DNA from: a virus | Direction: 5' to 3' (one strand) | DNA: 40,131 nt | IMG/VR virus record: IMGVR_UViG_3300023118_000016 | Location: 1 to 40,131 of that record | Shown here: positions 5,985-38,547 of the stretch, in pieces | Layout: every line of letters begins with the position of its first letter | Numbering within the stretch: position 1 is the first letter of the stretch | The notes under the pieces: generated by a model | Database searches by the model: none | What the model saw: the letters and a program-made list of their open reading frames with translations, nothing else | What the model was told of the DNA's origin: nothing | Program-made: the position numbers and the translations under genes

Positions 5985-6200
5985 ATGAAAAAGACACTTA
6001 AAAATATATTACTGGAAAGAACAGATACCATAGAATACCGTTCCATTAGAAAGCAATTAATGAATATTGCACAAAATGGAGGTAATGAATATTATCGTAT
6101 ATCCATACAGGATAAAACAATTACACAACTAAAAAACGAATTATTAACCGTTGAATTAATCGAAGATCATGGCTACAAAAAATACAAAATTAGTTGGTGA
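5985..6200 (+). CDS. Hypothetical 71-residue protein
   Basis: Highly charged, mostly helical (RTDTIEYRSIRKQLMNIAQN, then QLKNELLTVELIEDHGYK). No family recognised. Its 3' end overlaps the next gene by 32 bases, in another frame. The leader AATAGATATGAAA is shared with the gene at 10930. Confidence 0.6.
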   Translation: MKKTLKNILLERTDTIEYRSIRKQLMNIAQNGGNEYYRISIQDKTITQLKNELLTVELIEDHGYKKYKISW

Positions 6201-6471
6201 TAAGCCGGTTTCATACTGGGAAAACCCAGCCAAACAAATTGAGTGGCGGGTGGACATAAATGAAAAACATATTTCTATACCTCTCGAAGAAACGGATAGG
6301 GCTAAAGAGAACTTAATGGTTCAGCATTTTATAAATAACGGGTTCTTTATTCAAACTTGCATCCCATCTACAAAAAATAAAGTTTTTAACCCGGAGATTC
6401 GATTAAAACTACCAGCTGTTAAAATACCTCCGCCAGATGGTAAATACAATGCAATCAGTAGATTTAATTAA
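6169..6471 (+). CDS. Hypothetical 100-residue protein
   Basis: ATG 6169 lies inside the previous gene. Mixed alpha/beta with a WENPAKQIEWRVDINEKHIS segment and a Pro-rich end (KIPPPDGK). No family recognised. The final seven codons and the stop form the left arm and loop of a perfect 20-bp inverted repeat, so the C-terminus is constrained by, or was created by, that repeat. Confidence 0.6.
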   Translation: MATKNTKLVGDKPVSYWENPAKQIEWRVDINEKHISIPLEETDRAKENLMVQHFINNGFFIQTCIPSTKNKVFNPEIRLKLPAVKIPPPDGKYNAISRFN

Positions 6472-6491
6472 AAATCTACTGATTGCATTGT
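6446..6491. repeat. Perfect 20-bp inverted repeat
   Basis: Left arm 6446-6465 and right arm 6472-6491 are perfect reverse complements, around a 6-base loop AATTAA. It covers the stop codon of the gene ending at 6471. No T-run follows, so it does not look like an ordinary terminator. A 19-codon ORF starting ATGCAATCAG (6449) reads through the whole hairpin. Possible roles are an mRNA stability hairpin, a protein or RNase III target, or a scar of a recombination event. Confidence 0.9.
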
Positions 6492-17670: not shown

Positions 17671-17700
17671 AGCCTCCTTAAATGGGGGCTTTATTATTTA
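17671..17700 (+). terminator. Intrinsic terminator behind the capsid gene
   Basis: AGCCTCC, loop TTAAAT, GGGGGCT (7 pairs including one T-G) followed by TTATTATTT. A second small hairpin AACTAA-TTGG-TTAGTT lies immediately after the capsid stop (17637-17652). Together they would shut or reduce transcription before the homing endonuclease. Confidence 0.7.
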
Positions 17701-17747: not shown

Positions 17748-18428
17748 ATGATAGGTATATATAAGGTCACATCACCAATAGGTAGAATTTACATTGGTCA
17801 ATCTATAGATGTAGAAAAGAGATTGAATTCTTACAAAGCAGGGTGGGGTTATCGGCACTCTATCCGATTAAGGCGTAGTATTGAAAAGCATGGATGGGAG
17901 AAACATACGGTTGAAATATTGATAGAGTGCAAACAGATGGATTTAAACTTTTGGGAAGAATATTTTATAAAAGAACACGATTGCTTTGATACACATCATG
18001 GTTTAAACTTACGTTCGGGTGGTGATAGTCAATTAAATAGTGTTGAAACAAAAATAAGGATGGGAAACTCTCAAAGGGGGAAGATTATTACCGAAGAAAT
18101 GAGAAAAAAACTAAGGTTATATAACTTGGGCAAAAGTAGGCCGCAACACGAAAAAGATAAAATTAGTGCAACTATGAAAGGCCTTGTTAAGTCAGAAATA
18201 CATCTGAAAAATATTAGAAAATCTTTAAAGGAAAGTGAAAAGGCAAAATTAAATGTGAGGAAACTTCATGAAGCCAGAAAAAAGAAAGTCATTGACAGCG
18301 CATCAGGTAAAGTATATGATTCAGCAAGGGAGTTGTTTCAAGTAGAAAATACGGGATGTTCATATTCTCACTTAGTATCCATCCTTAATGGCTCCAAAAA
18401 AAATAATACAACTTATCAATATTTATAA
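17748..18428 (+). CDS. GIY-YIG homing endonuclease (free-standing)
   Basis: 226 residues. Seen: GIYK at 3-6 and IYIG at 14-17, Arg 25, the Glu-containing helix LNFWEEYFIKEHD, then NUMOD3-type repeats (GNSQRGKIITEEMRKKL, GKSRPQHEKDKISATMKGL) and a C-terminal NUMOD-like module (VIDSASGKVYDSAREL). The nuclease would cut phage lacking the gene at a nearby site and spread by repair. It sits between capsid and connector genes with its own promoter and no intron signs, so it is an intergenic homing gene. Confidence 0.92.
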   Translation: MIGIYKVTSPIGRIYIGQSIDVEKRLNSYKAGWGYRHSIRLRRSIEKHGWEKHTVEILIECKQMDLNFWEEYFIKEHDCFDTHHGLNLRSGGDSQLNSVETKIRMGNSQRGKIITEEMRKKLRLYNLGKSRPQHEKDKISATMKGLVKSEIHLKNIRKSLKESEKAKLNVRKLHEARKKKVIDSASGKVYDSARELFQVENTGCSYSHLVSILNGSKKNNTTYQYL

Positions 18429-36611: not shown

Positions 36612-37232
36612 CTAATCAGCTTTTTTAAGCGGCTTAAGCAAAGGTTTATATTGACAAAAGTCTGATTTACCTATCCACACCACCCAGCTTACGTCCATTG
36701 TAGGCGATCCTTTTTCACCATTTATACGGGTATGCTCCATAAAGTCTGGTCGCCATGTAAGCGGCAAAATATAAGCTGGCTTGCTTTTCATAAATAGTTC
36801 ATATCTACTTTTTGCATGCCAATATTGTGTTTTTAGTAGCATGCAAACGATTGGAGCAACCTTTAAGGATTCTGTTATAAATTGTTCAGCTAAATTAAAT
36901 GGCGGGTTTGTAATAACTGCATCAAATATACCTCGTTTGGGATCTTTTGGGAAAGAATGTTCAAAGAAGTCTAACACATTACCATAATCAGTTTTAACAT
37001 CTGAACTATAAACATTATGTCCATACTTTTTTATAACTTCCGATATAAACCCTTCTCCACATGCGGGTTCCCATATACGCTTGCACTCATCTTTAGTAAA
37101 GTAAAAAGTTAAATCATTGTGGAGAAAATTCATTAAAGCTTTTGTGGCTTCTTTTGGAGTAGGATAGTGATCTAATTCTTTACGATTGCTTTGATCGCCG
37201 CCGCCTACTATGGCTACTGCTTTATTATTCAT
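36612..37232 (-). CDS. DNA adenine methyltransferase (NPPF motif)
   Basis: 206 residues. Seen: a YPTPKEATKALM start, motif I EPACGEG at 55-61 (SAM binding), and catalytic NPPF at 109-112 in AVITNPPFNLAEQFI, then MLLKTQYWHAKSRYELF. No target-recognition domain is obvious, so specificity is unclear. It is one of three methyltransferases in the genome and stands alone on the minus strand between lysis genes, with its own terminator. Confidence 0.87.
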   Translation of the reverse strand: MNNKAVAIVGGGDQSNRKELDHYPTPKEATKALMNFLHNDLTFYFTKDECKRIWEPACGEGFISEVIKKYGHNVYSSDVKTDYGNVLDFFEHSFPKDPKRGIFDAVITNPPFNLAEQFITESLKVAPIVCMLLKTQYWHAKSRYELFMKSKPAYILPLTWRPDFMEHTRINGEKGSPTMDVSWVVWIGKSDFCQYKPLLKPLKKAD

Positions 37233-37287
37233 TCTTGTGGTTATTTATCACCGGCACTATTGCCAGTTCACAATTATAAACAACCTA

Positions 37288-37318
37288 TTTTATATTCACA
37301 AATTTATTTTTATATTTG
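37288..37318 (+). promoter_or_regulatory. Promoter of the lysis genes, nearly leaderless
   Basis: TTTT (37288-37291, one mismatch from TTTG), 19-base spacer, TATATTTG (37311-37318), a full -7 match. ATG 37322 begins 3 bases later, the same spacing as for the portal gene at 13534. Confidence 0.6.
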
Positions 37319-37321
37319 ACT

Positions 37322-37444
37322 ATGACGCCCATAAGCTACCGAGAGTACCGCCGCCAACGCCGTACAGGCAACTGGTTAATAGCTATAATTGCGGTTATAC
37401 TCTTGATTGTTGGTATTTTGGTGGCATTTTATTATGATAAATAA
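37322..37444 (+). CDS. 40-residue one-pass membrane protein
   Basis: ATG 37322 directly behind a -7 element. Basic front (ISYREYRRQRRTGN) and a hydrophobic helix (WLIAIIAVILLIVGILVAFY) ending YDK. A pinholin or antiholin shape, given the endolysin nearby, but not proven. An overlapping frame from 37210 is rejected because its sequence has no such pattern. Confidence 0.6.
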   Translation: MTPISYREYRRQRRTGNWLIAIIAVILLIVGILVAFYYDK

Positions 37445-37476
37445 AATTATTATATTTACATAAATAAACTAAGCGA

Positions 37477-37653
37477 ATGAAAATTAAAGCAAAGTTCAAA
37501 GGCTCAAATAGTTTGGGCTATGAAAACGGTGAAAATTACAAATTAGAATTTACAGTCAAAGATAACGCAGTTTGGATTATGCGTGAAAATATGACTGGGC
37601 TATGTAAATACGATAGCCTCAAAGCCTTTCTAAATAACTGGCAGGTATTCTAA
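37477..37653 (+). CDS. Hypothetical 58-residue protein
   Basis: ATG 37477. Strand-rich (MKIKAKFKGSNSLGYENGEN; YKLEFTVKDNAVWIM) and a helix YDSLKAFLNNW. A TATATTTA at 37451-37458 may be a -7 box. Its stop is one base before the ATG of the endolysin leader. No family recognised. Confidence 0.6.
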   Translation: MKIKAKFKGSNSLGYENGENYKLEFTVKDNAVWIMRENMTGLCKYDSLKAFLNNWQVF

Positions 37654-37654
37654 A

Positions 37655-37693
37655 ATGATTAGCCGTTACATTAACTTGATAACGGCTTTTTAA
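37655..37693 (+). other. Leader ORF inside a hairpin, overlapping the endolysin start
   Basis: ATG 37655 encodes MISRYINLITAF, and its TAA (37691-37693) shares the A of the endolysin ATG (TAATG). Nearly the whole ORF lies within the hairpin described next. Translating ribosomes would melt the hairpin and could restart on the endolysin. Confidence 0.5.
37661..37691 (+). terminator. Terminator-like hairpin directly before the endolysin
   Basis: AGCCGTTA (37661-37668), an 11-base loop, TAACGGCT (37680-37687) and TTTT: 8 perfect pairs and a T-run, the form of an intrinsic terminator. It ends 2 bases before ATG 37693, so it would either cut off or delay endolysin expression. Confidence 0.7.
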
Positions 37694-38262
37694 TGAATAA
37701 AGACAAGCTATTTACGACACTCCGAGAAATGAACCGGGGTAAACTATCACAGAAACAAGTGGATAGCATTAACGCCATTTTAGATAGCTGTGAAAAGCAT
37801 TTAATATCAGATACCCGACACATCGCTTACATATTGGCAACGGCTCAACATGAAAGCGGATTAACACCTATTGAGGAACACGGTAAAGGCGCAGGGTTGC
37901 CTTATGGTAAGATGTTGGATATAGGCAAAGGCCCAAACAAAAGAGTGGCTTACACAACGCCTAATAAGCTGTATTACGGTCGTGGATTTGTTCAGATAAC
38001 TTGGAAGTCAAATTATGCAGCTTTTGCACGACTATTAGGAGTTGATTTAGTTAATAGACCTGAACTGGCATTGCAAACAGATATAGCTGCGGAAATTATC
38101 GTTATAGGTATGCAAAAAGGAATGTTTACCGGCATCCGTTTAATTGATGCTTTTAACAAATTAGAAACAGATCCTATCGAAGCAAGAGAAATAGTAAACG
38201 GGCATGATAAGGCTGCTTTAATAGCTGGTTATTATAACAAAATATGGGCATCATTACAATAA
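37693..38262 (+). CDS. Endolysin, GH19 family
   Basis: 189 residues. Hydrolyses peptidoglycan glycan strands. Seen: catalytic Glu in ATAQHESGLTPIEE (Glu 54 and a second Glu at 61/62), YYGRGFVQITWKSNY at 94-108, and a NRPELAL motif after it, all in the GH19 lysozyme order. No signal peptide, so a holin has to let it out. Followed by a 3-base gap and a membrane gene. Confidence 0.92.
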   Translation: MNKDKLFTTLREMNRGKLSQKQVDSINAILDSCEKHLISDTRHIAYILATAQHESGLTPIEEHGKGAGLPYGKMLDIGKGPNKRVAYTTPNKLYYGRGFVQITWKSNYAAFARLLGVDLVNRPELALQTDIAAEIIVIGMQKGMFTGIRLIDAFNKLETDPIEAREIVNGHDKAALIAGYYNKIWASLQ

Positions 38263-38265
38263 ATT

Positions 38266-38547
38266 ATGAAATCAATAATAGATTTTCTTCATTCCACTAA
38301 AACCCAGGCTTATTTAGCTTTCACTATCCTTATAGGTGGGGGGTTAATTATTGTATTTGGCAAAGTATCGGAAACTGTTGATAATCGCCTGTTCGATTTA
38401 ATGTTTCTTATTGGTACGTTTTATTTTGGTTCTTCAAAGTCATCTGCAAGTAAAGACGACGCTATTGCCACAATGGCAACTAACGCCTCCAACAATCCTA
38501 CCATTCAGAATGCGGACAATGTTCAGATAGATCAAACAAAGGGATAA
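38266..38547 (+). CDS. Holin candidate
   Basis: 93 residues with two hydrophobic helices (AYLAFTILIGGGLIIVFG; LFDLMFLIGTFYFG) and a polar, Ser/Asn-rich tail, which is the class II holin-like plan. Downstream of the endolysin with a 3-base gap. The type is inferred from shape and position. Its 3' end overlaps the convergent minus-strand gene by 50 bases. Confidence 0.7.
   Translation: MKSIIDFLHSTKTQAYLAFTILIGGGLIIVFGKVSETVDNRLFDLMFLIGTFYFGSSKSSASKDDAIATMATNASNNPTIQNADNVQIDQTKG

Follow-up and report, generated by a model that had tools for sequence, protein, structure and literature searches.

A probable intrinsic terminator abutting the endolysin start codon in a phage lysis cassette

In a 40,131-nt stretch of DNA from an IMG/VR virus record (the whole of which is called the window here), a hairpin with a T-run lies between a gene for a 58-aa protein and the gene for a GH19-type endolysin. 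This element is likely to be the intrinsic (Rho-independent) terminator of the 58-aa gene, with the lysin of this compact genome starting right behind the T-run. The 12-codon open reading frame that runs across the hairpin is most likely coincidental: an AT-rich gap ending in TAATG would yield such a frame as a by-product.

The cassette is read from the plus strand in the order small membrane protein (from 37322), 58-aa gene (from 37477), hairpin, lysin (from 37693), and holin-like gene (from 38266). The first of these, a 40-aa protein (37322..37444), is a candidate member of the lysis cassette with one membrane helix predicted by eye and no match in Pfam or PHROG. The 58-aa gene (37477..37653, stop codon TAA at 37651-37653), which lies directly 5′ of the hairpin, has homologues of 46-49% identity in other gene contexts in L006, L007, and L276 and, on this comparison, is a genuine coding gene; no hairpin stands behind any of these homologues (0/3, read by eye), and a search of host genomes, run without a positive control, returned no relatives. 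The 189-aa lysin (37693..38262; Pfam PF00182, phrog_181 endolysin) has its ATG at 37693-37695 backed by alignment, the N-termini of relatives lining up from 37693, which also rules out a downstream start at 37729. The 93-aa holin-like membrane protein (38266..38547) has a 79% identical relative in L034 that sits directly 3′ of a different, lysozyme-like lysin; by this comparison, the cassette is mosaic, with exchange of the lysin around a constant holin. The top-scoring cellular relatives of the lysin come mostly from Mucilaginibacter genomes, from which we infer that the host probably belongs to the Bacteroidota.

Two observations concern the DNA just 5′ of these genes. The sequence TATATTTG (37308-37322), which fits the Bacteroidota -7 element TAnnTTTG, precedes the ATG of the 40-aa gene by 3-4 nt. 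It recurs 5′ of the L209 lysin (upstream of 2001), where a terminator-like hairpin is also present, 36 nt 5′ of the lysin. A 38-bp block around GGCACTATTGCC (37228-37265), just 5′ of the start of a minus-strand methyltransferase gene, is 87% identical to L001 2722-2758. Its flanking genes differ from those of L001, and the block is possibly a shared promoter or operator.

The hairpin itself (37661..37687, plus strand) has arms AGCCGTTA (37661-37668) and TAACGGCT (37680-37687) that form eight Watson-Crick pairs, four of them G-C, around an 11-nt loop. It leads into a run of five T (37687..37691), the first of which is also paired in the stem; the tail score of this run is 3.35, and the 99th percentile of all 15-mers in the window is 3.48. 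The stem begins 7 nt after the stop codon of the 58-aa gene and its 3′ end is 5 nt short of the lysin ATG at 37693, with the T-run reaching to 1 nt from it, so that the 8-bp stem and T-run of the original prediction stand, but not its placement of the hairpin 2 bases before the ATG. Folding of 37645-37720 as RNA gives -15.4 kcal/mol (z -3.87; 0/200 shuffles equally stable) and a single dominant hairpin, identical in the MFE and centroid structures, with the lysin ATG weakly paired in the MFE. When the window was shuffled 200 times with dinucleotides preserved, plus-strand hairpins of such quality with a T-run were expected at a mean of 0.055 per window, against the one observed, and the hairpin is therefore unlikely to be a product of chance. 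It is absent from the output of a generic hairpin scan because that scan limited loops to 8 nt. No known RNA family was credibly matched at the hairpin (two snoRNA matches both fell below the gathering score), and no promoter was recognised by eye within the stem or hairpin. A role as a bidirectional terminator for the minus-strand methyltransferase gene was considered and rejected: the hairpin lies on the wrong side of that gene and the minus-strand T-run is weak.

The same stem is found widely in other phages. In IMG/VR, the exact pattern AGCCGTTA-N5..15-TAACGGCTTTTT, that is, the stem with a loop of 5-15 nt and then TTTTT, occurs at 91 sites in 78 viral contigs, compared with 2 contigs for a control in which the second arm was reversed to abolish pairing. 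Most of these sites (83/91) are outside ORFs and 47/91 have a stop codon on their own strand within the 60 nt before them; these counts are not independent, since the 78 contigs include near-duplicates. Related phages carry numerous AGCC..GGCTTTTT hairpins in similarly stop-proximal positions. A stable, G-C-containing stem followed by a T-run, which recurs outside ORFs and behind stop codons in many phage contigs, bears the signature of an intrinsic terminator as judged by sequence, and the earlier description of the hairpin as terminator-like is borne out.

Close packing of such an element against a start codon is rare, yet found at unrelated genes. A survey of 1.2 Mb of phage sequence, either related or AT-rich, gave 162 perfect hairpins of the same class. 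Of these, 148 fall outside ORFs, and for two of the 148 (in L131 and L139, at unrelated genes) the next start codon is no more than 10 nt away. A further hairpin, with a G-T pair, stands behind a capsid gene in L112, between co-oriented genes, and its T-run is immediately 5′ of the next ATG; this is one of the closest likenesses to the present case, at a different locus and with no ORF across the hairpin. No ORF ends on the abutted start codon in L112, none that has a start codon does so in L131, and only GTG/TTG frames of 7-9 codons do so in L139. Given the rarity of abutment (2/148), the hairpin may have some special role at the lysin site.

Other elements of the window deserve mention in their own right. 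A terminator-like hairpin at 17671-17690, which follows the major capsid gene at a distance of 36 nt, resembles a partial terminator after the capsid gene, and stop-proximal hairpins like it are present in L102, L104, L108, and L115. The ORF behind the capsid gene (17748-18428, MIGIYKVTSPIGRIYIGQS) has, by eye, the look of a GIY-YIG homing endonuclease. At 6447-6490, where the ORF 6169-6471 ends, a perfect 19-bp inverted repeat CAATGCAATCAGTAGATTT with a 6-nt loop and a T-rich minus-strand tail is a candidate operator, terminator, or other palindromic element.

Relatives of the lysin were sought in viral contigs (with the lysin and with a lysin profile), in genome contigs, and in the 301 genomes of a family around a Mucilaginibacter genome, of which a selection of loci was read. 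No other case of a hairpin abutting the lysin start was found in any of the three sets. The same arrangement of hairpin and leader, which it had been proposed to look for in relatives, is present in the window alone among 75 distinct GH19 lysin starts and absent in the other 74, short of the conservation looked for in a leader-peptide attenuator. In L001, where the lysin is 82% identical, there is no 58-aa gene and no hairpin, a membrane-protein gene overlaps the lysin start directly, and the region upstream is unrelated to that of the window. Terminator-like hairpins do occur farther 5′ of lysins, at 36 nt in L209, 24 nt in L263, and 51 nt in L268. At many lysin relatives, the start overlaps the stop codon of the upstream gene, an arrangement that suggests stop/start coupling is common among them.

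The 12-codon ORF MISRYINLITAF (37655..37693) is exactly as first described: the TAA of the 58-aa gene is followed by one base, A37654, and then by the leader ATG (37655-37657), the frame spans the hairpin, and its own TAA (37691-37693) overlaps the lysin ATG as TAATG. Such frames are ordinary in this sequence. An ATG ORF of 5-30 codons ends on the start codon at 21/617 gene starts in the window and related phages; the window accounts for five of these, the leader included, and the other four are at unrelated starts. Across the same set, overlap with an out-of-frame stop codon is seen at 394/617 gene starts. The short leader ORF is thus no more than chance expects. Compared with gene starts, its ATG context ranks at the 15th percentile, and compared with all ATGs in the window at the 59th; the leader is kept in no relative found, and the fold of 37645-37720 offers no alternative antiterminator pairing. 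With a frame at base rate, a weak ATG, and absence from 74 other lysin starts, the idea that the leader gates the lysin and delays lysis finds no backing here. Reinitiation at the leader ATG, one base past a stop codon, is physically possible. A programmed -1 frameshift from leader to lysin on the T-run (TTT TAA), which by the reading frames alone would yield a fusion, was dismissed: it is unsupported, and the alignment with relatives places the N-terminus of the lysin at the lysin ATG.

If the hairpin is a terminator, polymerases that halt there would release an RNA whose 3′ end lies near the lysin ATG, while those that read through would produce an mRNA for the lysin and the holin-like protein. 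The gap between hairpin and lysin ATG is too short for a promoter; lysin transcription would therefore have to cross the hairpin, and termination would be partial. Lysin production would thus require a terminator that is either leaky or suppressed by ribosomes. Partial termination is also what would probably be expected of a short T-run and a four-GC stem placed 7 nt from the 58-aa stop codon. Ribosomes completing the 58-aa gene, only 7 nt from the stem, could weaken termination further, and a leader would then be unnecessary. In Escherichia coli, a terminating ribosome has a strong effect of this kind: shortening the distance between stop codon and terminator from 28 bp to 5 bp lowered the efficiency of the terminator from ~90% to <10% (Li et al., PMC4824070). 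The arrangement studied there is like the present one in having the stem a few nucleotides past the stop codon, with the T-run after it, and it differs in that tR2 and E. coli were used for the measurements, and not a lysin or the present host; the extension to a likely member of the Bacteroidota is by analogy, and coupling there may differ.

The main competing account would have the lysin gated by translation: ribosomes leaving the 58-aa gene restart on the leader, open the hairpin, and restart again at TAATG. Opening the hairpin would both suppress termination and expose the lysin start, and lysin would then come only from mRNA under heavy translation. The exact junctions TAA-A-ATG and TAATG suit this account, as do a fairly structured lysin start region (-6.8 kcal/mol, rank 71/619) and the frequent overlap of upstream stop and lysin start in relatives. 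Coupling through UAAUG is, moreover, proven at the lysis gene of RNA phage GA, which is translated in dependence on the coat gene (PMC9955659); the overlap is of the same type, although the upstream ORF in GA is the coat gene with no terminator, and here it is a 12-codon frame. Similarly, the coupled starts of f1 gene VII/IX and MS2 coat/lysis have nearby hairpins that ribosomes open (reviewed in PMC12548453), structures described as translation blocks and not as transcription terminators. Against gating stand the base-rate occurrence of the leader, its weak start context, its pairing with such a hairpin at a single lysin start of the 75, the other terminator/ATG abutments that do without a comparable leader, and the ability of a 58-aa ribosome to open the hairpin unaided. 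We consider gating unlikely, and decidedly unlikely the stricter version in which the terminator, set between the lysin and a small gene of the lysis region (the 58-aa gene) and suppressed by ribosomes that travel from that gene through the 12-codon relay ORF, acts as a translation sensor; were it true, relay ribosomes would reach the lysin start and lysin would appear only while translation of late mRNA is heavy. A hairpin chiefly blocking translation of the lysin start is more improbable still. The model for it is T4 gene e, where a hairpin at the start site of the lysozyme gene delays synthesis (PMC3014915), and the stem 5-32 nt 5′ of the ATG with a T-run reaching it gives the same general picture. 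In T4, however, the start region itself is sequestered and late promoters bypass the structure, whereas here the stem is upstream with a T-run, and no promoter is recognisable within the hairpin from which a transcript without the 5′ arm could be made and translated. The start region is also not among the most structured (71/619), and a terminator is the better match for the T-run and for a stem that recurs elsewhere. The original prediction knew of no lysin control of quite this form; its elements are published, in the UAAUG of GA and the T4 e hairpin, and it is their combination that is weakly evidenced.

A further reading, compatible with the terminator explanation, treats the 58-aa gene and terminator as a moron-like unit inserted between the membrane-protein gene and the lysin. 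L001 speaks for it, its membrane-protein gene meeting the lysin directly with neither 58-aa gene nor hairpin between, as do the unrelated contexts of the 58-aa relatives. But a promoter of its own is just a weak match by eye (TATATTTA near 37450), the unrelated upstream region of L001 means that the ends of an insertion cannot be set, and none of the three 58-aa relatives has the hairpin behind it. The insertion is a possibility, less likely than not.

On the preferred reading, that of an intrinsic terminator of the 58-aa gene, the case displays how tightly a phage terminator can be packed against the start of the next gene. Its parts and principles are already known, and as it stands it is a detail of annotation; if translation of the upstream gene does set the level of read-through, it would give the phage a simple means of tuning the amount of lysin.
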